In this document: piece after piece, positions 506 to 62,200 of the stretch | How positions within the stretch are numbered: the stretch's first letter is position 1 | How the letters are laid out: each line of letters opens with the position of its first letter | Assembly: GCA_030268105.1 (NCBI GenBank) | Contig: BSDZ01000017.1 | Location: 434,001-498,000 of the forward strand | Reading direction: 5' to 3' | DNA length: 64,000 nt | DNA from: Volvox africanus | Taxonomy: Eukaryota > Chlorophyta > Chlorophyceae > Chlamydomonadales > Volvocaceae | Made by a program: the position numbers and the translations under genes | Notes under the pieces: model-generated | What the model was told of the DNA's origin: nothing | The model's database searches: none | The model's input: only the letters and a program-made list of their open reading frames with translations

Positions 506-1570
506 TCAGCACAACAGGGTAAGGGGCTCCACGCTGAGGTGCAAAGATGGCTTCTTCCAGCCCTGGCCCTCCAGCCGCCCAAGCCGCATCCCCAGAGCCA
601 GCCCCCGACGACTGTATGACAACCCAGCCTCGTTGGCCGCCATGTCATACGATGCCGATAAATTGCCGTACTTAAAGCTCTTGCAAAGCGCCAGCGATGG
701 ACGAGGACCCCGGTTAAACGCGTGGGAGATGTCCAACTCCCAGCCGGTGATATGATGCCGAACTTGATCATCGTTATCTGGTGGGACGAGCATATAATAT
801 AGCTGCGGAAGCAGAGGGATGTTCCAGATGAAACCGGGGATGCGCTCCTCGATGTTATAGTCGAAAAAATCCGCTGCGTAGTTTACGAGCCGACCCAAAT
901 CGAGACGGCAACCTATCCGAGTAGCATGGATTAGATCACGCACACGGGCTTCGTGCTGCACGTACAGAGTGTGGCGAGCGCCATCGTCTGCGGGCTCCTC
1001 GACGCGGTCTGTCAAGTCGTTGTACAAAATCTTGCGCCACTCTGGGCCAGGGGTGCTAACCGCAGCGTCAAGTTTGACCGAGCGCATAATTGGGTCGACG
1101 CGGACCAACAGCGTCGCGCGCTCCGTCTTGGCATCACCAGTCCAGCAAGCGGACAGCTCTGGCTTTCGCGTTTTGAAGTCGTAGGTAGCTGCGAAATAGT
1201 TATCAACCTTAAATTGTTTTGCAGCCACAACCTTTAGGCTGGGGACACTGCTCTCCCCGATTCGCTGCGCGAGCGCCGCCGTCGGGTTGTCGAGTCCTGT
1301 GCGGAAGCTCAGATTACCGGCTGTAATACCAACCACCAGCGTATTTAGCTTAAAGGCAACTCCCATGTCCGATGTGCCTTCTACAACACGGCCGGTGGTG
1401 CTCACGTCTGTCGCATCGGTGCCTTCCTTGACGACGAATGAGCACCGCCCTGTGGCAGCCGGTCCCAAGCGCTCTTTTATTCCAAATGCGGCACCAATGT
1501 TACGCCATTCAATTGGCAAAAATGATAGACGTGGGACAAAATCCAGCACATTTTCCTCCTCTTGTCCCAT
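506..1570 (-). CDS. Intronless gene of unknown function, possible envelope beta-barrel protein
   Basis: A single open frame of 354 codons, long for this intron-rich region and headed away from the YIP1-family gene. I do not recognise the family. The C-terminal third is built of short alternating polar/hydrophobic strands separated by turns (for example SFKYGNLSASYDMAANEAGL), and the middle contains YFAATYDFKTRKPELSACW. This is the pattern of chloroplast or mitochondrial outer-membrane beta-barrel proteins such as OEP-type pores; this is an inference from texture, not a domain match. There is no clear N-terminal signal or transit peptide, which would fit an outer-envelope protein. The ATG at 1570 (MGQEEENVLDF) is the first in frame. 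The 328-bp gap to the start at 1899 could be a shared promoter. Confidence 0.6.
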   Translation of the reverse strand: MGQEEENVLDFVPRLSFLPIEWRNIGAAFGIKERLGPAATGRCSFVVKEGTDATDVSTTGRVVEGTSDMGVAFKLNTLVVGITAGNLSFRTGLDNPTAALAQRIGESSVPSLKVVAAKQFKVDNYFAATYDFKTRKPELSACWTGDAKTERATLLVRVDPIMRSVKLDAAVSTPGPEWRKILYNDLTDRVEEPADDGARHTLYVQHEARVRDLIHATRIGCRLDLGRLVNYAADFFDYNIEERIPGFIWNIPLLPQLYYMLVPPDNDDQVRHHITGWELDISHAFNRGPRPSLALCKSFKYGNLSASYDMAANEAGLSYSRRGLALGMRLGRLEGQGWKKPSLHLSVEPLTLLC

Positions 1571-1898
1571 GGTGGCCGCCTACAACCGAAACCCAGGCCA
1601 AATTCCAAGTTAATTTAGGTTAATAGAGATTTGGGGCACGTAAGAAATCTAACTGCAAGTGTCGTCATCGTCCCCGGTTATTTTTGGAGCCCGATCAGAA
1701 TGTACGGTCATGCTCCTCTGACTTTTCGCAATGTCGATAGTTCTGCAGGCGATACGGCGACGTTTTTAAGCACTCTTACCCCTCTAAATTTTCTCGTCCT
1801 ATCCCACACGCTGCGTTTATAGTTTCGTCGTGCCCTCAGCTGCAGCCGAATCCGTCTTACTGAAAGTAACTCTACATAGCCGACACCGAACCGGAAAT

Positions 1899-4800: not shown

Positions 4801-7044
4801 AATTGCATGGCATAAGATGTAGGAAGCTGTAGCAGGATACGTAGGGTGGCTTGTGAGTTGATCGCTCAATCTTGGCAAAGCTACTGTGTTGCTGCCTGTA
4901 AAGGAGGCATGATGAGGGGCATGTTGCTGGAAGGTTGCGCACTTGTATTGTTGAAGGCATAGTTATAAGGATGCCAAACAAAGTGGCTGCTGGCTGGTGG
5001 GCGATGCACATTGTAGTGACCGGTCACGGTCGTCCGTTGCCTTCATTGGCAACCATACTAACCTCTACTACAACGCATCCCACGCCCGCCTCTCTCTTTG
5101 CTTTCGTTCGGCCACCCGCAGCTCGCTACGTCCGCCGCCATCTTCTACGGCTACATATTTGTTGTGGGCCTTATCCTCTTCTTCTTTGTTAAGTGGTTCA
5201 AGGGCGAACTGCGGCTGGCGAACGTATTTTGCATCTACGGTGCGACTTACACGGCTACATATAGTAGATAAATATAGATATAGATATGCATATAATTTCC
5301 GTTTCCTCGGATATAATGCCCTTGTATGTACCTTATTCCTGATTTATTTCCGGAACAGGAAGACAGAGTAGATATTATTCATAAACTACTGAGTGGTGGG
5401 GACTCCTAAGACATTAAAGGACATTCAATGGCCACAATATCTTATCCTTCCTCGATTCGATTCATATATACTATATATACATATGTATACACATGCTCAT
5501 ATACATATAGTTATACATATAACGTATGTTCATGCTCATACCGGGTGTATCATGATTGGACCCATGTGACTCATATCCTAAACCCCGTCTCCGCCTCCGT
5601 GGCGGTGCCTTTCACCGGACTCGTTTTCCCAAATTCTTCATTCATTTTGATTAGTATAAAGCGTTTTAAATAGCTGTGCCGGGTCTCGTCTTTTCGTCTC
5701 CCATCGCCTTCACATAACGTACTCCGTGTCCTTGTCCTCCCTCCCCTCCCGCTGCTTCCCACTTCAACGAACCCAACAAATTTCGCGCGGTACTGTTTCG
5801 CCGCCAGCAGCGGCTAGATCAATAGTACGCTTTATTATGATTTCTATTGCCTTATTTCTGCTTCTATTCGCGGCCTTGGCGGCTACCTAGTTTACATTCA
5901 AACGTTTTCACCCTCTCTACCTTGGATGGAGCTAGTCGTCGTCCTCCACCATCGCGGTTAGGCATACTCTATAGCAGCGTCTCAACAGCAGTGCCATCTC
6001 TCCTTTACTCGTCTTCCACCCTCCACCCTTCAGCGTGCTTCCCGCGTCTCTCAGGCTGCTCACCACCACGTGCCGTGCCGTGCCGTCGTCATCTTTATCT
6101 TTACCTCTGCCATCCTCTCTTCATCCTCTTTTCCTACGCCCCCCGACCCCGCGTCTTAATCTGTACCCTGCCTTCTATTTCAACTGCGCCTTTCAACGCA
6201 CTTTTCCGACTTTGGACGACGTCAACCATCATCCGACTTTCACCATTAGTCCTCGTTCCTTACGCATTAGCACCAGATTTCCTTTTATTCGCCTTCCTCC
6301 TCCCGCCACGCTCAGGTTACTGTCTGACCATCTACGTACCCGTCTCCATCGCCTGCATGGTCCCTATCGACTGGGTGCGGTGGGTGTTGGTGATGAGTGC
6401 CACAGCGCTGTCGGCGGGATTTCTCTTCATGAACTTCAGGGCTACGATATACAGCGCAGCGCCGGCAAGGTGGGTGCGCGATGGCGTTGCTTAGGATTGG
6501 GGTAGGTTGGGTTCGGCGTTGGCTGTTTGGCGTTAAGTGGACTGGGCTGGCGGTGAGGTTTGGTGGTGTGCTTTTCTCGGGAACTGTGAGTAAAACCAAT
6601 TTGGGAACAGGTTCGGGCCTTCGTTCAGCGCGCCCAAATCAGTTCAGTGAAGCGTGCTCTAAATCTCAAGGATGGTAATGCAGTTACGAAAAACCATAAC
6701 CTTCTCTGCCCCTTCCCGCACAAGTACCACCATAGCTTCTGGTACCAAACGGCACCTTAGCCTACCTTTCACCCCTCCATCCTCGTCTCTCCTTTTCGAC
6801 TAAGCAACATAATAATATTAAGAAATAAATATGTGCATCAGGTGGGATATCCAAAGCATGCACACTGATGACTCCGTTAGCTCATCAGGAATCTACAGTC
6901 CTGTGCGCGGACCGCCCTTCCTACTATATCAGTGCCTTTCCTCCGTGTGTTATATGCTGCAGAGCGGTGCTGGTGCTGGTGCTCATCGTGCTGGCGCACA
7001 TCGGCTTAGGCCTGGGCTTGAAGCTGTACTTCTTCCAGTACTAG
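1899..7044 (+). CDS. YIP1-family Golgi membrane protein (YIPF1/YIPF2 type), 9 exons
   Basis: Spliced model 1899-1904, 2007-2232, 2476-2540, 3303-3494, 4028-4110, 4567-4759, 5122-5239, 6316-6469, 6963-7044; 372 aa, phases consistent throughout. YIP1 proteins are five-helix membrane proteins of the Golgi and early secretory pathway that work with Rab GTPases in vesicle traffic. The Gly/Pro/Gln-rich cytosolic N-terminus (about 1-140) is followed by YYREYFDVDTK-like RRYREYFDVDTK, then the family signature NPDLYGPFW (about 188-196), as in human YIPF1. Five hydrophobic segments follow, including TATTLIFVTAVVGN, YIFVVGLILFFFVKW, VSIACMVPIDWVRW, VLVMSATALSAGF and AVLVLVLIVLAHIG. The first coding exon is only two codons (ATG CAG), so the start is less certain than the rest. 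The donor of exon 3 could be 2538 or 2540; 2540 keeps the frame. Introns 3 and 7 are long. Confidence 0.85.
5262..5540. repeat. AT-rich (TATA/ACAT) simple sequence in an intron
   Basis: Intron 7 of the YIP1-family gene contains runs of TATA, GATA and ACATATA units, especially 5262-5292 and 5464-5530. The stretch is simple sequence without coding signs. Confidence 0.7.
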
Positions 7045-19087: not shown

Positions 19088-20558
19088 CGGACCGGTGGCG
19101 GCAGCAGAGGTTGTGGCGTCTGGGTTGGTGGGAGGCTGCGGGCATACATGGGCGGGTTGGGATGGAGGCTGCAAGGGTGCCAATGTCTCGGATGCGGAGC
19201 CTTGTGAGGACTGACGCAGGATTTTGCGCCGCCGGCAGTGCGTGTTTGCATATTGGATCCGATGGCGAGGGACAAGCGCCAGGGGCAGCCCCAGGCCTCG
19301 TCAAGCAATATAAGACCGCGAATCCCCTTCGCAATATAGATGGGCCCAAAGCTAGGCTGCATTTCCACCCACAGGTGGCGTCTGTATCCGCTGCTCCTGG
19401 TCGCGTGTCATTCGCAAACGCAAGGCTCACAAGTACGCGTCATTACGTGCTTGCTAGATTATGTATGACGCACTGTCATGGTCTTTATTCATGTAATTTA
19501 GCGGGCGTGCTGTTTTTGCTGGCTGGTGTGCACGCGGTTTGTTCGGAGTGGTAGGGTCAAGGGGAGAGGGTAGTGGGGCGACTTGGGAGCTTAGATATTG
19601 TTCATGAGCAGATGGGTCCCAAAACGAGTATGTGGTCTGTTATTGGGATCGGGATCCTACACATGCGTTGACGCACTGAATTGCAGGACTGGGGGGAACG
19701 ACCCCTTGTCGCCCATGGCATATGCCACGACCTGCTATTTCGTCGGCCCCGTCTTTGTATGGGGCAGCCCCCTGCTAGGTGGATGGCGTCACGACTGTAA
19801 GGTTGGGGGCCACGCTGTACTAGCCACGGTCTGATTAGGAGATCACAGCAGATATATTGGCAAACATGTATATGGCAGCTCTGATGATGATATCTGGAGC
19901 TGCCATAGAATTCGCCATCACTTTTCAGCCCCTTATCCGCATGTCGGCTTACTTGGCATGATTGTGTTCGGTATCATCTATAGTACCCACCCCGTGGGCT
20001 TCAGGCAAGAGCAGCGAAAGAGTCAGCAGCAGTGCAATCCGCTTCATTCACCGGAAATCAGCAGGGCTAGGAGACCAAACCCGTCCAGCAGCAAGCACAG
20101 CGAGCTTTAGTAGGCGGTAGGAGGGACCGGAGGATAGATCGTAAAGCACCTGAGACACGGGTGAAACACTAGGTAACCAAGCGGTCAGGACCGCCATCAG
20201 ACCTGTCTGTCAATTCCTGTCGTGCAGGTTAGCTGGTCCCGTGCTGTGCGTACATGCACTGTTCCACTTCGAAACCTTATCCAGAGCATACCAGATCCAC
20301 CTATGTTTGGCTTTGTTCTGTACATACTCATACGATTTGGTCTGGTTTTAGTACCCAAAAAGCCACTTATCTTGCTCATCAGTGCCACTTAAGTACCAAA
20401 CATCTTTACCTACCAATTTCATGAACGTCTAGTGTGTCAGAGACACCATGCTGAGCCCTTATCCACGCATATACGATAGATAGCGTCCTTGAGATGTCTT
20501 CGTATTTGTCAGGCGGTCTGTCTTCAATGCACTGTTTTTTCGTCAAACATTCCGAAGA
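19088..20558. other. RABL2 3' UTR and spacer
   Basis: Apart from the TGTAA at 19492-19496 I see no gene signs. Open frames are short and no splice-linked exons were found on either strand. Confidence 0.4.
19492..19496 (+). other. Putative polyadenylation signal TGTAA of RABL2
   Basis: TGTAA lies about 405 bases past the RABL2 stop codon, inside a plausible 3' UTR. Confidence 0.45.
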
Positions 20559-27100: not shown

Positions 27101-30100
27101 GGGGATAACCGTCACACACAACAAGAACGAAGCTGGGTCTACCTCCCAAATGTCATATTCTCTTCATCGGCTTTATTTGTCAGATATAATCCAGTCCACA
27201 TGCACCCGGGAGCCGCTACACGTCCACACTTCAAACCTGCATAGCTACGGTCCGCAGCTTGACCGTCCCTGGACGTGACTTTGGATCCAAATCAACAACA
27301 TGCGCGTACACATCCGTTTGAGTGGCGGCAAACGCGTGCCGCGGCGGTGGAGACACCGCTGCCGCCGCCAACACTGGAGATAGCTGCTCCCGTGGCGGCC
27401 GTGGCTGATGAGGTTCCGTTGGGTGGTAATGCGGGTCCGGGAATGAGCGCTGGCTCGACGATTGGGGCGACACAAGCTGTGGCGATGGCGATCGCGAGGG
27501 TCTAATGGCCCGTGGCTCGGATGGGACGCCGACGGTGCCACGCGCAGTGAACGCTGGCACAGCCCCAAGTGCTCCGGTGGAGGCTCTCGGAGTTGGGACA
27601 TTAGGCATGAGGGGTCGGAATATGGGTTGCTCCTGCAGGCCTCTCTGCATGGCCTGTAGGGGGAAAACGGGGATGGGTAAGACTCGTGACGAAATCTACA
27701 CGTGTTCTCTAGGAGGTAGCCAGGCGTATGCTGGTAGCCGTATCATCCGTCTTAATGCCCCAGAGAAGCCATTCGCAGACATGAAGTTCCGGGGAACTAT
27801 TTGGAGATTGGCGGGAGGGTTACGCAGCAAGTTGCATATGAATGCCTACTTATTGTTAAAATACCGATCACTCAAACGCTTTGACATGCCACTCCCCGGT
27901 TCTTGATAAAATACAACAAAAGCTAATAGGTAAAGACGGTATCCCTTCCGCGCCTTCTCTCCTCGCCACTGTATTGCCACGGTTCGGACTCCGTCACTGT
28001 CGGTCAAGAGCCAATGTGGCATAGGGCGCAGCCGTTAGCACTCACCTGCGAGGGAATAAACTCCTCCGAAACGGTCCTGGAAAATTGGTTGTCCGCTCCA
28101 GTTAGTGAACTCAGGCCCCCGGCGCTACCATTCAGGCCATCTGGGCGTACTCGCTCGCGTTGGCCCCCGGCGGAGATGGTGGCCCATTCCGGCGCAACCG
28201 GAGTAGCTCCCAACGCGCCGCTCTGAGACAAGTGCGAGGTGGAGGCGTCCATTGTGGCCGATGGCGAGTCCAGGGCATCTTCGAGGTGGCGGCGGCCGCG
28301 GCGATTCTCACGGCTGAGGGACGGTGAAGAATGGTCAGACGGCAGCGCATCTGGCGGGAAGCGCCGCGAGGAAGTATCCGCAAGGGAGGAGAATGAACCA
28401 TGAATCTATCAGTAATTGGTACATAGAGAAGATGAGAACACATATGCCAATTCTGCGGTCAACAAACCACCTGTTGAGACCCCGGCTGCTTGCTGCGCAC
28501 AGGAAAGAATGCGAATGAACTGCTTTTATGATTGCTTTTGTGTTCTTTTGTGTTCTTGGCCCGGCCTGCAAGTTTACCGGTACAGGTAAAACCAGACAAC
28601 TCAACTGCCCGATACCACAAGGACAATTTCGGTACTATTGGTGCCAGCTGCCGTTATCAAGCCACCCCAGCGTACGAAGCTGTGGATTTTGTCTAAGAGC
28701 GCATTCGTGCGCCCTTTTTCAAGGTGCCATGGAAGCTCCAGCCCAGGTTATATCAAAAAGAGAGCATGTTCCGCTGGGCACCAGGGTAGCTGCCATTTGC
28801 CACTTCAGTATGGATTCTTGACTTGGTCCTATGCAGTACTTGCTCTTGCTTTTCCACGTCGTGCACACGCATAAATCGAGAGGTGCGCCAAAAGCATCTA
28901 CCCTTGGTTGAGGTAAAACGCCAGCATAGGGCCCTACCCCACAAACCGGTGGGGTCGAGCCAGCAACCCGTGGAGTTCCTGGATTCCTCGTTCCGTGACC
29001 AAAACTTTCAGCAACCCATTCGCCAATCCCGACCACCTTCACTCAGGCACACACACATGCTGCCTTGCAAAACACACAAAGAAAGCACCATGCCTGTCCA
29101 AGCTGCACAACGCGGTGGTCAGGCTTGGCAGCGGGTGACGCCCTTTGGCGTTCCAACCCCAAACTTTACCTCATTCACACTGGGGTTAGCGAAAGCAGTG
29201 GCAATGACGTGTACGCTGCAGTTCTACATTGGCGAAACATATGCACTCGCGACCGTACCAGACGATCCATTAACTTGCCGTTTAGCTGCAATTGCGCATT
29301 CTGCTGCCGCCAGCCTGCGACCTCATCCCCCTCCCTCTCCCCCCGCGACCGCACGGGCGAAGCCATCAGGGTGTCATCGCCCTCCTCAATGGAGCCATGG
29401 CTACCCGAATCCGCCACCACAGCAAATCGGGGGTCGGGAACCGCTCGCAGCTGCAACTGAGATGCCGGCCTGGACGCAGTGGCCGCCGCAGTCGCTGACT
29501 CAACGCTGAGGCTCTTCGCATCCTTGCCGTTACCGCTATCAACGGATGGCGAATCCGCGGCAGAAGGGGAGCGGCTGTTTAGGATTGTCCGGGGCAGCTG
29601 CCTCGGATGACCGCCACCTTCGACCACCGCGCCTTCCTGCCATTGTGTACGACATATTCAAGTCCCCTCCATAACACCCGTAGATATGCGTTTTGAGCCC
29701 AGGACGTGAGTGACACATTTCACAGATTGTAGCCTAGTCTGTTTCCCTAGGTTGTGTGTTCTGAACACCTGAACAAATTTACAAGCTCAGCATTGAGGGC
29801 TACCTGCCAGGCTAATCCGCTAACTGATGGTGGCATTATCCAGCCCCATAACGCTTCGCATCATATTTCCCAATCGCCGCGTCTGCATCCCCCAAACCGG
29901 GGTGCTACGCACCTGGCAGCCGAAAGCGAGCTCCCGCTGCTTGGAGCCCAGGCGTCGAGGCAGCCCCGAAGGTCCGTTGTCTGCGGCGGATACCCCTGCT
30001 GCCCCCCACTGGGAGGAGCTAGCACGAGAACGCTCATGGAAATGCCAGTCCCCGGTGACTGCATCCCCCGACTCTGTTGCGCCCGACTCGGCTGCGATGT

Positions 30101-50495: not shown

Positions 50496-50610
50496 GTGGT
50501 GGTGGTGGCGGTGGTGGCGGCGGTGGTGGCGGTGGTGGTGGTGGCAATCGTGGTGGCGGTGGCTGATGTTGTGGCGGTGGTGGTGGCGGTGGTGGCGGTG
50601 GCGGCGGTGT
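50496..50610. repeat. (GGT/GGC)n trinucleotide-type low-complexity tract
   Basis: About 115 bases of GGTGGT/GGCGGT repeats. It directly follows, on the minus strand, the end of the decayed integrase. Valine- or histidine-rich frames through it are artefacts. Confidence 0.9.
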
Positions 50611-51284: not shown

Positions 51285-52889
51285 CCAGGTCCTCAGGACT
51301 GTTTCTGTTGTTCATGTGCAACTGTGGCTGCAGGGTGAGCCGGCATCAGAGCAGTTCGCTAACGTCGGGGTTAGCATCGCTCTTGGGACTGGGGCAGTCC
51401 ATACGGTGCATGAATACGGTCCACTCGCAGAGCGTCCATTGTTGTCCTGGCTGCCGTCATGGGCAGGGGGCTCATGAGGTAACAGCGGCGCCGGGGTTGA
51501 GGTGGCGGACCCTACTGGCTGTAAAGGTAGTGGTGATGGTGGCCATGGTGGTAGGGATACCGGCAGCAGGGGCTGTCCTGCCGCCGCTGCCATGTCAGGT
51601 GACTCAGCAGACCATTGGAGCTCCGTAACGGTAATTGGGCTCCAGGGATAATAGCGGCTGTGGCAGTGGTGGCCCAAGGGGGTGGCGCACGGGGCCGTCA
51701 AGGGAACATGACAGGAGCTCACCATGTAATGCGCCATCATTAGGTAAGGCAATCTGGGGTTGACCCTTCAGAGTAGATCCATAAGCCTGGCTCCTTTACC
51801 AAGTGCCCTTGTCAAGTGCATATGATGGCGTGGCAATTCACGGGAATAGACGGAACGTTTTGCTGAAGGAGTTTGTAGGATAGTTCGGATAGCTGCACTT
51901 TCTTGCGAGTGGTGGTTGACCGTTGATGGAACCATCGTACATTATCCGATCGCTTCCTTGCTATCTAAGCGTAAACACTTCCTCTAGGAAGCGCTTCGCC
52001 TGGTCAATAAGCAATATAACTCTAAATGTGGCTGCAGTACATCGTTACACATAACAGTTGCCAATAGTGTGTTCCAGCCCAGGCCGACATAATACTATCA
52101 ACGAAGGCTCTAGCCAGGCCTGATCAACCTGGTTAGCAGTTTATAGGTTCCCCAAGGGAACAGCATAGGAGGAACTTGGTGCGCATAAGGCGTAACGCCC
52201 CACCTCCAAGGCGCTAGGAAGGAGCGTGGTCTCGCCTCTTGGCCGGGTTATGGGACCAGCATTGGATATACTTGCCCGAGATGTAGTTCAACGGCTGCAG
52301 CGCATCCCAATCACCAAACCCAAGCCAAGCTATCACGTGCTTGCGTGGACAAGTTCTCTCTGGGGACGCCCCCTTGCCCCACGGGTGACACGGAGCGCCG
52401 ATTCGTAGGGCGGCAGGCCAATTCGATTGCAGCTGAGGCACGACTGGCGGCCGGCGTGAGGCGCTCTTCTGGTGGCCAGCCCGGTTCTGGGGGGTTGCCC
52501 TCCTTCGGACATTATGCTGCTGGGAGCCAGGCATCCAGTGCCCGCCTATTGGCCGGGAGCTTGTGGGGCATTGGTGTCCTCCCGCGGGTGCCCCTCTCCC
52601 CCGGCACGCTTACATCGCTGTCACCCTGCGATTGGCGATTGGCGGGCTGTGTTCGGTGAGGAGGCGGAACATCTTTTGGGTGATGGCTCTGCCTCACCAC
52701 AGGATCAGGTCTCCGCCTGTAAGGTGCTTCAGGCCCGTTTCCCACCACTGATGATGAGGAGCCTCGGGCAGGGGGAGGCACGGATGCCCCCGTGCAGCCG
52801 AACGTCAGCACTGAGGTAGGAGCTAGCGGGATCCCCCGCTGTCATAACGGACTCATCACCTGACCTTGGCGGTGCTGTTTATACTGGTT
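51285..52889. other. Host-type DNA between integrase relic and bacterial insert
   Basis: GC-rich sequence with several overlapping open frames rich in Pro, Arg and Ser on both strands and no clear domain. It is probably further retroelement debris upstream of the integrase, but I could not identify reverse transcriptase, RNase H or protease motifs. Confidence 0.35.
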
Positions 52890-52892
52890 TAG

Positions 52893-53243
52893 CTATATTA
52901 TCTAAGCCAGGCAATAGATAACCTGATTATCAATAGTATCAATTACGCCAAAAGCGGGACTATTGCTATTAATCTTAAAAGGGATAATGAGAAGGAAGGG
53001 ATAATCTTTAGCATTAGCGACGAGGGAATAGGGATTCCGCCTGATGAGCTCGATGAAGTATTTGAGGAGTTTACGGTTAGTTCTAGAACCCAAAATTTTG
53101 CTGGGGGAAGAGGGGTAGGACTTGCGGTGTGTAAAAAAGTTATTGAAGTACATGGCGGGAAGATCAAAGCCGAAAGTAAAAAGATAGGTACTACGATCTG
53201 GTTTACCTTGCCTAAAGTAATTAAAGCCGCTAAGGGATTTTAA
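52893..53243 (+). pseudogene. Sensor histidine kinase, C-terminal ATPase domain fragment
   Basis: In frame after a TAG at 52890-52892 and ending at TAA 53241-53243. The piece is the HATPase_c domain of a two-component sensor kinase: N box DNLIINSINYAK, G1 box DEGIGIP, G2 box GGRGVGLAV, then the usual VIEVHGGKIKAES and WFTLP end. The whole sensor part and the phosphoacceptor His domain are missing, so it is cut at its 5' side right at the boundary with algal DNA. The natural stop codon seems intact. It cannot be functional. Confidence 0.88.
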
Positions 53244-53367
53244 CTATTAAGTATTAAAACTACTTAAAAAATAAGTTTTGAGGGAGAGTGTAAGCAATCT
53301 TACAGGTTTCTCCTAAAGAAGCTGTATTTGATAATTATTAAAGATACTTAACCTGGAAACGATATTT

Positions 53368-55139
53368 TTATGACCTTCTTGCTAAATGCCAATAATCGTC
53401 GTAGTTCATTAAATTGGGTTCTATAGAATACTGGCCGGTTGTAATATAGTGGGTAAGTAAATTTATTAGCCCTTGTTTGTGTTTTTGGATATCTTCTTTG
53501 CTAATTGGTATCTCAGCTAAAGAAATATAGGGGCTTTTACTATTAATCTTAACATAAACCAAACTTTCTGCCTCTAAACTCCCTAGTTTGCCAAAACCTC
53601 CTTCAAGTAGTATAATAGATTCAATAATTAACTGAGGGCTAAGCCCTAAAAAAACATCTTTTTTGGTTGGAAGAGCACCAGTTTTATAATCCATTATAAT
53701 TGCTTTATTCTCTTTATTTATCTCTATACGGTCAGCTATTGCGACAATTTTTATTTTTTTACCGGCAATATTGACTGTCAGTTCCCCCCGAGCTTCTGCA
53801 ATAACCTGTTGTAAATTTTGCCGCCTCGTATGATCAAATAGGATAAAATCTTTGGCTATTGCTTCAAGCTTGGTTTGCCAAAAATTTGTTGTTTGTTTTG
53901 GGAATATGCTTGCCGAGAGTAATTCTTTAGCATAATTTTTAAACCTCTCGAAGGCAATTAATGGATCAGATGTATAATTTTTTGTGTATATTTCAACGAC
54001 TTTATGAAAGAAATTTCCAAATTCTGATAATCCCGGTGTTTCTTCTATTTCCTGCTCACTTTTTAAATTGAGAATTTTTTTAGCATAGAAATTATATGGA
54101 GCTCGAATTAAAGTTTCTATATCAGTAGCCGATATTTGCTCAGGAAAGTTTTCGGCAAGAACGTACTCTGCAGATTGCTTGTTAAAGTTAGTAATTGTAA
54201 AATCTGTGGAGATAAAACTCTGATTAAGATTTTCTTTTAATATATGTTTCAGGGTTAACAAGAAAGGAGATGGCATAGATGCAGAAGAATTGCCAGTGTT
54301 AATCGACCTAGTAATTAGAACATTTTCATTATGTAAATTTAAATAAAAATCATACATCGAATTCCCAAATCTTGCAGTCCAAGAATCAAGTCCTATTTGT
54401 TCAATCATTTGCTTATTTAACCAGGGACTAACAATTTGTAGTGAGGGGTATGAATTTAAAACAAAATTTGTATGTATTATTAAATCGTAACTTATAAGTG
54501 TTGCTTCGTTAGGAGAGCAGATAATTATGGATCTATTGTTTGGGTCATTATAAATACGACCACCTGAAATTAGTTCTTTAAGGATATCCGGAAAAATTTC
54601 TGGCTCAGGAACTTCGATACTCTTTGTAATTTGTATAATTTCTGTAAAAACATTTATAATTTTATTATTATAAAACCCTTGCCATAAATTGGGATATATT
54701 ATTTTTACTGCTTCAATAGTTTCGATAAGAAAAGTACTAAAATTATGGCCTTTAAATTTCTGGCGGAACACTTTACAAATATTGTATAATTTACCTATTT
54801 CTCTTTGATCAGTAAAATTATCGTCAATTATTTGTGTTATATCATTAATATTTTGAGTAAATCTATTATGCTTGGCAATTAACTGTTTTAATTTTTTTGT
54901 TTCATCACAGATTATCAAAGGATGCAAAATTAGGCTTATAAAATCCGGTAAAAAGAATTCTTGGCAAATATTTTTAGCTATTTCTAGCACCAGCCCAGTT
55001 AATGGTAGATTTAAAATGTTTTCTCCAAGCAAATCAGAAAAATTTAGCCCGTATTTATCAAATTTAGCAATAAAATAATTTTTTATTTTATTGTCAGAAA
55101 TCAGGACTGCAATTTTACCATCAGGGTTTCCTAATAATG
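53368..55139 (-). pseudogene. addB: AddB-type double-strand break repair nuclease, 5'-truncated
   Basis: One open frame on the minus strand of about 590 codons, ending YDDYWHLARRS at 53368. AddB forms with AddA the helicase-nuclease that processes double-strand breaks in alphaproteobacteria. The C-terminal PD-(D/E)XK nuclease is present: IADRIEINKENKAIIMDYKTG has the Asp and the D-Y-K triad part, with downstream QLIIES. The N-terminal helicase-like half begins abruptly: GKIAVLISDN is the 'lethal' start of strand 1 of an inner Walker-like region of AddB, and its upstream part and start codon are absent. The frame runs directly into the truncated MnmA at about 55135. The first ATG (55032) is internal and not a true start. 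Confidence 0.85.
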
Positions 55140-55811
55140 TTTCACGAACTTACCTGGCTTTTGAGTCGACGGACGCATTCTAGTTACGATCTCACGATAG
55201 TCCCCCCCTAACACAAAACAAATATCCTGGCTATCTGGCTTATCTGCGACTTCCAGACCATATTTTAATGCTAATTTTCTTGTTTCTTCCTTACTATATT
55301 TACCCAGTGGAAATTCAAGAAAATCCAGCTGCTCGTTAGTGGTAAAGAATAAAAAGTAACTCTGGTCTTTATAAGGATCTAAACCTCTGTGAAGCTCTGA
55401 AGTGTTATGGTTAGTAATTTTTTGCACATAGTGGCCAGTAGCAAGAGCATCTCCGCCAAGTTCTTTTGCAAATTTTAACAAATCTTTAAATTTGACGGAC
55501 TGATTACAGCGTACGCAAGGTGAAGGGGTTTCACCTCTGGCATAACTATCAACAAAATCATCAATAACTTTTTGCCGAAACAGGTTTTCATAATTTAGGA
55601 CATAATGAGGTATACCAATCCTATCTGCAACCATTTTGGCGTCATAAATATCTTGACCTGCACAGCATGCTCCCTTTTTTTGTAGTACAGCCCCGTGATC
55701 ATATAACTGTAAAGTAATACCTATAACTTTATGTCCTTGCTCATGCATCATTGCTGCTACTACAGAGCTATCCACTCCTCCTGACATTGCTACAACAATA
55801 GTTTTAGGCAT
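55131..55811 (-). pseudogene. mnmA: tRNA 2-thiouridylase MnmA, 3'-truncated
   Basis: MnmA thiolates U34 of Lys, Glu and Gln tRNAs. The start [20 protein letters not shown] at 55811 contains the PP-loop SGGVDSS; the catalytic cysteine motif [12 protein letters not shown] and the GHYV and KDQSYFLF motifs follow, then [11 protein letters not shown]. At about residue 222, after [11 protein letters not shown], similarity ends, where the normal protein (about 360-370 aa) would continue with the GQRRGLG region and the second catalytic Cys. The reading frame stops a few codons later inside AddB sequence. An upstream in-frame ATG at 55871 gives 20 extra residues of no family likeness, so 55811 is the start. 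Confidence 0.93.
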
Positions 55812-56120
55812 AATAAACCTGTTTTTTTTCCTCAAGGACCGGGGTTTTCCAAGGATGAAATAACAATCCAACTATCAGGTAGTAATCTTGAAATAGCCGC
55901 AAGACATGTAAGCCAAGATAATGAGGGTAATAAAGTGTACTAGTCAAGATTTGATCTTGACATACACCATAACTAGCCTTCAATATTGTCGTTCAAATTT
56001 TGATTTTTTTGTTCAGCTAAGTATTCAAGATATAAGCGCAAAGGTTAAGAATATTGTAATCTTGATTAGAGTTATAAAACGTAAATAATATAGACTTAAG
56101 CGCCTTTTTATAAGGAAAAT
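55812..56120. other. AT-rich bacterial intergenic region
   Basis: Between the divergent mnmA and potD fragments. No gene. The stretch just before potD has TAAGGAAAATATG, where AAGGA at 56112-56116 is a Shine-Dalgarno-like sequence five bases before the ATG at 56121, so this part derives from a true bacterial upstream region. Confidence 0.55.
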
Positions 56121-56378
56121 ATGAAAAAATATATTACGTTATTTTTTTTAGTTTTTGGAATTCACCTTACCGCTTCAGCTAATGAAATTAATGTATATGT
56201 TTGGACAGAATATATACCAGATAACATAATTGAAAAATTTACCGAAGAGACGGGGATAAAAGTGAATCTTTCTACTTACGATAATAATGAGAGCCTATAT
56301 GCGAAAGTAAAATTATTACATAATTCTAATTCCGGATATGATTTAGTGATGCCTTCTACCTATTTTGTCAGCAAAATG
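56121..56378 (+). pseudogene. potD: Spermidine/putrescine-binding protein PotD, N-terminal fragment
   Basis: About 86 codons. A signal peptide (MKKYITLFFLVFGIHLTASA) is followed by the mature start NEINVYVWTEYIPDNII, the standard PotD opening, and FTEETGIKVNLSTYDNNESL and GYDLVMPSTYFVSKM. PotD is the periplasmic component of a polyamine ABC transporter of about 340 residues; three quarters are missing. After VSKM the frame switches without a stop into a different protein (RelA/SpoT piece). A Shine-Dalgarno-like AAGGA lies five bases upstream of the ATG. Confidence 0.9.
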
Positions 56379-56534
56379 AGGCCTGATGGGACGAAGTTAA
56401 GTGTAGAGGAAATAATTACCAATGCTTATCAAATGCAAGATGAAGAAGTGTTATTAATTAAATTAATGGATAGAACCCATAACATAAGTACCTTGAATTT
56501 TATGTCAGTAGAAAAACAGAAACTACAGATGTGA
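56379..56534 (+). pseudogene. RelA/SpoT (ppGpp hydrolase-type) fragment fused in frame to PotD
   Basis: About 51 codons continuing the PotD frame. DEEVLLIKLMDRTHNISTL matches the HD-domain region of RelA/SpoT enzymes (typical form EVLLIKLADRLHNMRTL), with the Asp of the helix that binds the metal, followed by SVEKQK (usual SPEKQ). Rickettsiaceae genomes often carry several broken spoT genes, so the donor copy may itself have been a fragment. The piece is cut at 56534, where algal DNA resumes; the TGA comes from the junction. Confidence 0.8.
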
Positions 56535-56873
56535 GACGGCCGCCCTGCCTCGCACGCTCCCAGGGCAGCGGGCATGGACAACCTTCTTGGTGATCTTGGT
56601 GGCACGGGTCGTGGTGTTTCCTCTTGGCTGCGCGACCCTCCGAGACCCCTGGTGGGAGCGTGTGTCTGAGAGCATCACACCCACAGAGTACCTCTCAGGG
56701 GTAAAGGTGGGCTCAGATCAAAGATGGGGTTAAGGGGGTAGAAATGGAGGGGACCGTGGGGGTGGCTGTGGCGGGCAGTGCCAGGGGGTCCAGGCGGGAC
56801 ACACCCAACACCCAACACAATCCCCTGCGCGCGCCGCCTGCGTCTCAGCCGCATGTGCAGCAGGCGGCGCTGT

Positions 56874-59249: not shown

Positions 59250-62200
59250 TCAGTCGGTTCCATTTGCTGCGTCCTGGGATCGCCGTCTGTGAAACTCTTC
59301 TCCATCTTTTCTGTTTGCCTGTTCTTTGGCAGTACTCGGCAACTCGTACAGCCGTCCACAGGTGCTACAGGCGGCAAACCGCGGTGAGTGGCCTGTGGCT
59401 ACGCAGTGGTCTCGGTGCTGCTGCAGGTTAGCAGAGGAGCGGCCGCAGGAGGGGTGGTCGCAGTGCAATGGCCCGGGCAGCAGCAGCTCGCCAATGGGGC
59501 TGCGACAGTTGGGGCAGGGGCTCGGCGAGGAGTGCCACAACCGCAGCGCCCGGAACAGCTGGCCCGCTACCAGCACATCGCTGCACGCAAATATATTGAT
59601 CATAGGTAAGAGGTAAAACAATTGAAGTTGAGCAATGTGACAAAGAAATAACCAACTGAAAGTACCGGAAGTCAACGTTGGTGGGTCACAGGCCCGGTTC
59701 GGGGAGGGGTGATGGCGGTACGTTTTCAGGTCATTAGACCCATCCGGCCAACTGCCGTGCCATGCCGGGTCAGTTGGGACTCTCTGAGAAAGGATGGGTG
59801 GGGAGCAGTCCAGGGTCTTGGCAATGCTGGTGGGGTGGGGACCAGAGGTTCCAGCAAAAATCTCGGGCCAGAACGATGCCTATGACTTGTGATCCCGTTA
59901 GCCCCAACTGCTTATCTCATGATTCTACGGCGTACACCCACATCCAAAACCACCACAAATGGGAACCGCCACCCTCCAGGCCTTCCCACCCACTCCAGGT
60001 CAACGTAAATCTAGGCAAGATAACCGCCACGTGTTCTCCCGGTCCCTGCATGCTCTCTCTCTCCCTGCGCCGCTCGAACAGAAAGCGAGGCCATCATTGC
60101 TACCTCACTCCCTAGAACTCCGCCTTCGTCTCCACGGGTCCAGGTCGCCTGCCTCAACCCCTGGTCCCTTGCTTCAACCACAGACCGAACCCCCTACTCA
60201 CAGGCTTGCGTACTTCAGCTGGTGGTTGCTAAGCTGCGGCGCCGCCCAGTTCGACCTGCTAATGGACTTCGACTTGGGCAGCACGATGCCCAATACCTTC
60301 TGCGACAGGCGGGACAGCCCGAAGCCGTGATATCCCAGGCTGGCCGCCACCTCCTGCGGACGTCAGGGAACGAGAGGCAGTTGGCACAAAGTAAAGGACT
60401 GTACATAAGAATATGTAAACAAACACAGGTCGAGGACGAACAGGGCCCTCAAATCTCCTTCCCCCCATTCCGACAAGCTCCCTGCCAATAGGGTCATGAG
60501 TTTTCATCATGAACCACATTTTCTCTATTTATTATTAATATTTGGTATATAAATATAAATATAAATATATATGTCGATGGACGGTGACGACCGCAATTAA
60601 AGTGACCTGCGAGCTGACCAGTAGCGGAGTTGACGCCTTAGTTGATTGGCAGATTCCGCTGGATGCTGGTGGTGGGTGCTGAACCTGGGAAAACCACTGA
60701 TTTCGGAGAAGTCGGCATGGGAGACTGGATGAGGGTGCCCCGAAACACCGGGGAAGGTAGAGACTGCCAGGTTAGTGGCCACGGGTGATGTACCCCCCTA
60801 TCCTACACACACATATATAATTTACAGATTGCACGTGCATGCGGTGACTCGCATTCTCCAGCGATAACTCAAATGATGTTCTGCGTTCGTTGTGCAGCCG
60901 CATGCAAACGCTGCCATATCGGGGAGCGACCGAAACATGGACACAACAAGCCTTTGTCGGCGCACAAGCAAGCCCTGGACGCATTCTTACGCTGCGGCTA
61001 GAGCATATGCAGTGCGCTACCAAACACGGGCCTCCAATGATACAGCGATCCCACTGGGTTCATCTACGCCAATGTACGGCCCTCGTAGTGCTCGCTATCC
61101 CACCAAACCCCTCCCACTATTTGACCGGCTCCCATAGCTCTCACTCTTGTCCACGTACTGCTGCCTACCGTTAGGCGTCCAGCCCTCGCCATAACTATGC
61201 GTTTGTATGTTCCGCTTTGTTGTTTTAGATAGCTGTGCTTATGTTCCGCCAACTTATTTTCCCATCATAGTGATGCACCTTCGTTTGCCTTATCTTCAGG
61301 TTCTCACTTAAGCCTGTACTGAGTAATTCGTCTACTTTCCATTACTTTCTATGTAAAATGTCTTAATAAAATTTCAAGGGTTTTTAGTCTGCTGTTTAAG
61401 TTGGGCAGCGACACAGCCTTCATCAGCTAACAGGTCATTTGCAGCCCCCCAATTAATCTGATTTTTCCTCAATTCCATTAAATACTGTACCCCTCCCCAC
61501 AGTTTCATCGTAGAACGCCCCTCTCACCCTCCCCCACCTGCAAGTCCAGGAAGCGGCGGAAGTCAGCTCGCCCCAATCCGAACGTGCCCCGCATCTTGGA
61601 CTCGTCCGCTGAGTCCCACCCGAAACCCAGCACCACATGGCCGGGGTCCTCCAGGAAGCTCCGTAGCTCTGAAGGCAGCAAGTAGCCCATACAGCTGGTT
61701 CGCACCACGAGACACACGGAGCCAGAGGACACCTGAAGCAGCGCCACAGGGGACACCCGACCAGAAACGGTTTCCGGGCGCCACTCCAGGTCGATAGCCA
61801 CCACCCGGTCCTATGGTCCAGTAATGAGGGGAAGGGCAGCAGAAGGGAACCACCACGACGTCAGGGTGAACCATCAGGAGGAGCAGACAGCGCCTCTGAT
61901 ATGGGCGGGTTTAATGGAGGACTCACATGCCAGGATGGAAGCCCTCCGAAGCACACACCGGATATGTTTTGCAACGAGGAGAAGCTGATCCCACCTCCCT
62001 TGGGACGGAAAAAAGGGAGGTGGGATCTAGACACCTGCTGGGTCCGGAAACGTATGGGGCACACCAGGTCAGGTCCATCATACGGGTCCAAGCCCATAAT
62101 CCCTTTTCCACTCGCTGTAAGGACCCCTTCCCATGGCAGAAGGTTCCAACCGAGCACCGCCTGCCGCACCCACGCACGGTAGCCACCTGCATGCCCGCCT

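Follow-up and report, generated by a model that had tools for sequence, protein, structure and literature searches.

How did a 3.6-kb block of bacterial DNA come to lie inside the chromosome of a green alga, and is it alone there? The question is raised by a 64,000-nucleotide (nt) stretch (hereafter the window, C17:434001–498000) of an algal genome assembly of 141 Mb in 126 contigs, in which a first-pass annotation had marked AT-rich Rickettsiaceae DNA at window positions 52890–56535. Symbiont-to-nucleus DNA transfer via mitochondria and plastids has shaped all plants and algae and is hard to watch outside organelles. Because the product of a host open reading frame at window 509–1579 is closest to Volvox proteins (identity is 90% with a protein of Volvox africanus, 84% with one of V. 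carteri and 80% with one of Pleodorina starrii), we take the host to be a Volvox-type alga. The bacterial block within it was confirmed: the guanine–cytosine (GC) content falls to 27–39% within 53.0–56.4 kb, versus 46–65% in flanking intervals of 400 bases, and all five genes named in the annotation were found. We are highly confident that the window holds nuclear DNA of such an alga in which fragments of a Megaira-clade bacterium have been joined end to end, likely during break repair, and that similar shards lie at many other sites.

Anatomy, site and donor of the insert

Six assigned donor segments lie between the two halves of a host repeat. Segment A (52895–55147) gave a single 87% match, over 2,258 aligned positions, to an uncultured Rickettsiales metagenome-assembled genome (G001). 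It carries the 3′ end of a sensor-kinase gene (52893–53243, plus strand; the ATPase end, PF02518, 2.5e-27) and the C-terminal two thirds of AddB (53368–55149, minus strand; TIGR02786, 1.1e-63; open over 593 codons), which are contiguous in the donor and adjoin at 276–279 kb in the Megaira symbiont of Mesostigma viride (G002, CP084576.1) as well. Segment B (55144–55837, minus strand) is the 5′ part of mnmA, encoding an N-terminal part of the protein (PRK00143, 1e-86); it is cut within the frame, is 90% identical to the Mesostigma symbiont at 1328 kb and to G001. Segment C (55838–55935, plus strand) is a 98-bp (base pair) piece from within an hsp20 gene, and is separated by an AT-rich stretch of 98 bp (55936–56033) from segment D (56034–56111, minus strand), whose 78 bp follow directly after ddlB in Megaira and are 85% identical to the Mesostigma symbiont at 362438–362515. 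Segment D is probably the start of ftsQ, a name that rests on its position after ddlB because an E. coli FtsQ protein query found nothing in the Megaira DNA compared. Segment E (56107–56389, plus strand) is the 5′ part of potD, with the N-terminus of the protein (PRK09501, 2.3e-24; 91% to the Mesostigma symbiont at 1100 kb, 93% to G001), and segment F (56379–56522, plus strand) is an internal piece of a multicopy relA/spoT gene (TIGR00691, 3.4e-7), 65–78% identical to several Megaira copies.

Segments A, B, D and E thus have their counterparts at widely spaced positions on the Megaira chromosome (276–279, 1328, 362 and 1100 kb), and the joints cut the addB, mnmA and potD frames internally. The earlier description of five pieces set end to end stands for the non-contiguous donor segments but not for the kinase and AddB, which form one segment. 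No gene is whole at both ends, yet some ends are intact, namely the stop codons of the kinase and AddB and the starts of MnmA and PotD. The five pieces were also not the full content, the hsp20, probable ftsQ and AT-rich stretches having been overlooked. Read by eye, the donor relatives, which are only 85–93% identical, overlap by about 1–4 bp at the A/B, B/C and E/F joints; in the BLAST alignments the overlap is 4 bp for A/B and 5 bp for D/E, and for E/F it varies from 2 to 11 bp with the relative used.

The best relative of segment C in the 1.2 Mb of the Mesostigma symbiont compared reaches about 31% at the protein level, with no close counterpart there, and the segment recurs unchanged within a complete Hsp20 frame elsewhere on the same contig. 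That frame (L005:1334–1780; C17, about 276.4–276.8 kb) encodes 149 amino acids (aa), has a start and a stop, looks rickettsial and matches PF00011 (4.4e-17); a weak second match accompanies it at the locus.

The left flank (52720–52889) is part of a host repeat that continues in the right flank (56533–56679) and is uninterrupted elsewhere in the genome. When the flanks were joined (317 bp), they matched across the join at C109 (86%), C10 (85%) and C19 (83%), all without the insert, and in two pieces at C22; because the joined flanks match these paralogues across the join, we conclude that the insert split one copy of the repeat. The empty copy on C109 measures 281 bp against 280 query positions, and, set against the paralogous copies, the site shows no hint of a target duplication and has lost little host sequence. 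Judged from the assembled sequence, the insert is flanked by host DNA within one contig and has empty paralogous counterparts.

The donor is supported as a member of the Megaira clade (Rickettsiaceae), as the first-pass annotation had proposed. AddB gave 122 relatives, the best 120 of which were listed (7,998 candidates scored), and the best 120 were likewise listed for MnmA (7,999 scored). Among the matches listed, the closest AddB (P0001) is 97% identical at the aa level over the whole piece, followed by relatives at 88%, 86% and then 68%, with the Mesostigma symbiont at 86%; the closest MnmA is 98% identical. In a quick AddB tree of 72 rows (the window piece and 71 of the 120 listed relatives), the window piece pairs with P0001 (Shimodaira–Hasegawa-like approximate likelihood ratio test (SH-aLRT) 99) inside a clade of four (SH-aLRT 100). 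Best matches outside Rickettsiales, which would have argued for another donor, did not appear among the AddB relatives listed. An organelle origin was unsupported: among the listed matches, most of the named relatives that rank near the top for AddB and MnmA belong to Rickettsiaceae or Rickettsiales.

Several observations suggest that the window insert is young. Its pieces contain no stop or frameshift, and 1,018 codons without a stop bound neutral change at about 2%; the ratio of nonsynonymous to synonymous substitution (dN/dS) from the insert to G001 is 0.166, versus 0.151 between the two bacteria. The 17 differences from P0001 divide into 9 private to the window, 6 private to P0001 and 2 ambiguous, and 115 bases of the window potD piece show 1 difference from a shard on C5, 4 from Megaira and 8 from G001.

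Shards elsewhere in the assembly

The insert had been described as a single isolated event, a view that did not survive: it is one of very many in the genome, and micro-inserts occur even within the window. At 20326–20432, a 48-bp and a 60-bp shard from Megaira 193 kb and 1120 kb abut at 20373 (expectation values (E) 4e-8 and 1.5e-13), and at 27888–27944 a single 57-bp shard matches Megaira 45.6 kb (95%, E 8e-17). Used as a query, the insert matched 18 other places in the genome, 4 by host flank only and 14 by insert sequence. Four of the latter are 97–100% identical (115, 98, 59 and 35 bp), ten are 75–90% identical and none falls between, a gap that points to at least two waves or donor strains, with the caveat that numbers are small and multicopy genes (kinase, relA/spoT) add paralogues. 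The shards at 75–90% would represent older events or other donor strains. On C25, a 141-bp shard (1248226–1248366; htpG-like by eye) matches the Mesostigma symbiont at 100% identity, a much closer fit than the window insert shows, and it is therefore likely that more than one donor strain contributed.

The seven best other matches of the insert query (L002–L008, not a random set) reproduce the mosaic structure in part. On C5 (L004), five shards of 59–115 bp derive from five donor loci, and two of them abut (817–890 and 891–952); three shards were found at each of L007 and L003, two at L006 and one at L008, and C36 (L002) carries a long, largely colinear rickettsial insert. The names given to micro-shards (nusG-like, metG-like, NTPase), to the htpG-like shard and to an IS200-like hotspot come from inspection of the translations by eye, with no family search. 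The C5 locus (L004:1–1800, about 749.6–751.4 kb) also holds an exact 45-nt duplicate and a 38-nt unit present twice with inverted partial copies, which look like insertion-sequence ends.

To sample the genome blindly, we chose Megaira pieces by position, of 5 kb each at 100001, 400001, 700001 and 1000001 and of 10 kb at 550001, and scored all candidates. These gave 0, 10, 22, 15 and 40 matches, respectively, so that 30 kb of Megaira yielded 87 matches on 34 of the 126 contigs, totalling 13,992 bp with a median of 77 bp; 56 of the 87 were shorter than 100 bp, and 32% of the sampled donor bases were covered. Without the IS200-like gene, 74 matches and 12,443 bp remained. A further 20-kb Megaira piece, picked for addB, gave 45 matches (40 of 64 candidates scored). 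Scaled to 1.448 Mb, the blind samples correspond, as rough figures, to about 4,200 matches at E ≤ 1e-3 and 0.68 Mb, and to about 1,160 matches when only the 24 of 87 at E ≤ 1e-30 (counted by hand) are scaled. Two 5-kb controls, E. coli dcw genes and an AT-rich phage, had zero matches in the algal genome.

Mosaic joining recurs among these shards. The matches C9:1768196–1768274 and 1768276–1768615 abut, although their donor loci lie 100 kb apart, and C16:3237881–3237935 and 3237935–3237998 abut with donor loci 1.7 kb apart in opposite orientation. In a close-pair test with 136 of 139 matches (three of the window insert were dropped), unlinked shards lay close together in 8 pairs, at 7 places in all, versus 0.21 pairs expected under uniform placement; the maximum in 300 simulations was 2.

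Chance similarity was rejected on a reversed-sequence control, in which the reversed window and reversed loci L002–L008 matched only a low-complexity Megaira tract at 346–348 kb. Matches at window 50498–50607 and L007:26–135 belong to this same tract and were dropped, and other AT-rich patches of the window (for example, 5221–5580, with GC down to 29%) had no Megaira donor match.

The annotation had also raised the prospect of a co-assembled bacterium, which our indirect test makes unlikely. No match to 53 kb of Megaira queries, among the candidates scored (40 of 64 for the 20-kb addB piece), exceeded 1,807 bp, the window insert itself, and none covered a whole query. The next-longest, of 1,741 and 1,467 bp, run to the ends of their queries, so these two inserts may be longer. 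On C36 an element of about 360 bp (L002:485–860), with TATTTAT at both ends as a 7-bp duplication, breaks up the rickettsial sequence; parts of this element occur again on C100 (260 bp, 98.8%) and at window 60571–60811 (242 bp, 97.9%). Because the element recurs in the genome and is bounded by TATTTAT, we conclude that a repeated host element moved into the rickettsial DNA, its ends marking it as mobile. C36 was accordingly rejected as a bacterial contig: it had no match in the five blind samples and carries the host element.

Origin of the mosaic

The structure of the insert points to capture by end joining, as first proposed: non-contiguous donor segments meet at joints where, as read from donor relatives, a few bases seem to overlap, and paralogous sites are empty. 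Symbiont cells would lyse inside the alga and their DNA would break up; the fragments could then be used to fill double-strand breaks, by non-homologous joining or by microhomology joining of the POLQ type, and would be either ligated in or copied by template switching. As no symbiont genome was seen in the assembly, the symbiont may since have been lost. Beyond the single locus, we consider it fairly probable, as one joint proposition, that the assembly holds an estimated thousands of Megaira-like shards, often under 100 bp, contributed by several Megaira strains over time, and that symbiont DNA acts as a standing break filler that leaves, in volvocine chromosomes, a datable record of repeated infections and losses.

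Several points weigh against this interpretation. The 98 bp at 55936–56033 match neither the Megaira donor DNA compared nor any other part of the algal genome; single bases of the joint overlaps are unsure because the donor relatives are 85–93% identical; the empty sites are paralogues at 83–86% and not alleles; and the residence of the window insert was judged from assembled sequence. At the genome scale, the total is an extrapolation, 13 of the 87 blind-sample matches lie in one multicopy insertion-sequence-like gene, and an empty control shows little without a genome known to match. One blind sample of five, at 100001, had no match; Megaira NIES296 holds a long nonribosomal peptide synthetase frame at 100003–105000 (L024:3–5000) that left no trace in the algal genome, and the gene was probably absent from the donor.

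Of the alternatives, the one that fares best, although we regard it as unlikely, is that a fragile site took up the segments in several separate events rather than all together during a single repair. The differing identities of shards across the genome and of the segments to Megaira would fit such a history, but the host repeat was broken at a single point with little sequence lost, no bases of host origin could be made out between the segments and all testable frames are open. It is improbable that the patchwork was formed in a bacterium, for example as a degraded or rearranged plasmid, and was then transferred whole. Megaira genomes do contain repeats and insertion sequences, and our comparison was made with relatives of the donor and not with the donor strain itself; against this, the joints cut mnmA, addB and potD within their reading frames, and the nearest relatives have intact AddB (899 aa) and MnmA (358 aa), and an identical hsp20 shard and a nearly identical potD shard occur at other algal loci in different surroundings.

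Retention of the inserts for use by the alga, for example as expressed genes, is very improbable: the complete 149-aa Hsp20 frame at C17:276 kb and the 593 open codons of the AddB piece could be read in its favour, but all five protein pieces of the window insert are truncated and youth explains the open frames, and we propose no function for this insert. An assembly chimera, in which reads of a live symbiont or contaminant were misjoined to algal contigs, can be set aside almost entirely, for although the insert is known from contigs and not from raw reads, a co-assembled symbiont would give long blocks where the Megaira queries gave none, the matches are short pieces dispersed across many large contigs, shards of 48–115 bp abut each other and a repeated host element interrupts one insert. 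We therefore retain the joining of Megaira fragments during break repair as the preferred explanation.

Relation to known transfers

The closest known case is the 9-kb rickettsial region with 16S, murB, ddlB and ftsQ that Kawafune et al. (2015) described in the V. carteri nucleus (PMC4324946). In both cases a Volvox nucleus holds Rickettsiaceae ('hydra group') DNA in which genes of separate donor loci lie truncated side by side and a host element sits inside; the cases differ in that the V. carteri insert is a single region with other genes in another species, whereas many shards are scattered genome-wide here. Orthology between them was not found: murB had no match in the algal genome where expected, its place being inferred between murC and ddlB (16S was not searched), and of ddlB there are just two short pieces, both on other contigs (C21, 123 bp; C3, 46 bp).

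In nematodes, nuclear Wolbachia DNA forms up to 653 regions per species at E below 1e-30, with mean lengths of 434 bp (Onchocerca) and 2,038 bp (Brugia) (PMC12693587). Many symbiont fragments, a record of past infection and more than one donor lineage are common to these transfers (PMC12693587, PMC4046930) and to ours; the host here is a green alga, for which extrapolation gives 1,160 matches at E ≤ 1e-30 and the median over all matches is 77 bp, figures that allow no strict comparison because the methods differ. Complex nuclear inserts of mitochondrial and plastid DNA likewise unite fragments from distant loci of one donor genome; their joints, blunt or with 1–7 bp of microhomology, are ascribed to end joining (PMC6215612), but their donor is an organelle and ours a facultative bacterial symbiont. 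In Chlamydomonas, chromosomal fragments are captured with microhomology at Cas9 breaks, the long insertions measuring 132 to 500 bp, and plasmids integrate at random in a POLQ-dependent manner (PMC8495919); the alga is related, but these are laboratory events without symbiont DNA. The joining mechanism that we infer from structure resembles that of the complex organelle inserts and fits the Chlamydomonas fragment capture. Rickettsial DNA has also been reported in a fern mitochondrial genome (PMC10132079, PMC10027690).

In a literature search that left most subscription papers outside it, Kawafune et al. was the sole report found of rickettsial DNA in a Volvox nucleus. Symbiont DNA inserts in nuclei are thus a known kind, including one in V. 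carteri; the number of shards, their small size and their confetti-like mosaic build in a green alga are new, no precedent having been found in that search.

If Megaira shards were stitched in during break repair, as is likely, the chromosomes of this alga would record past infections, and the traces that a bacterial symbiont lineage has left in this green alga are dense. Shard identity could date these infections, separate donor strains and reveal whether Volvox once had Megaira as a steady partner; shard size and joints expose break repair in this lineage. For annotation, the finding is a warning that short bacterial pieces in volvocine assemblies should not be taken for contamination by default.

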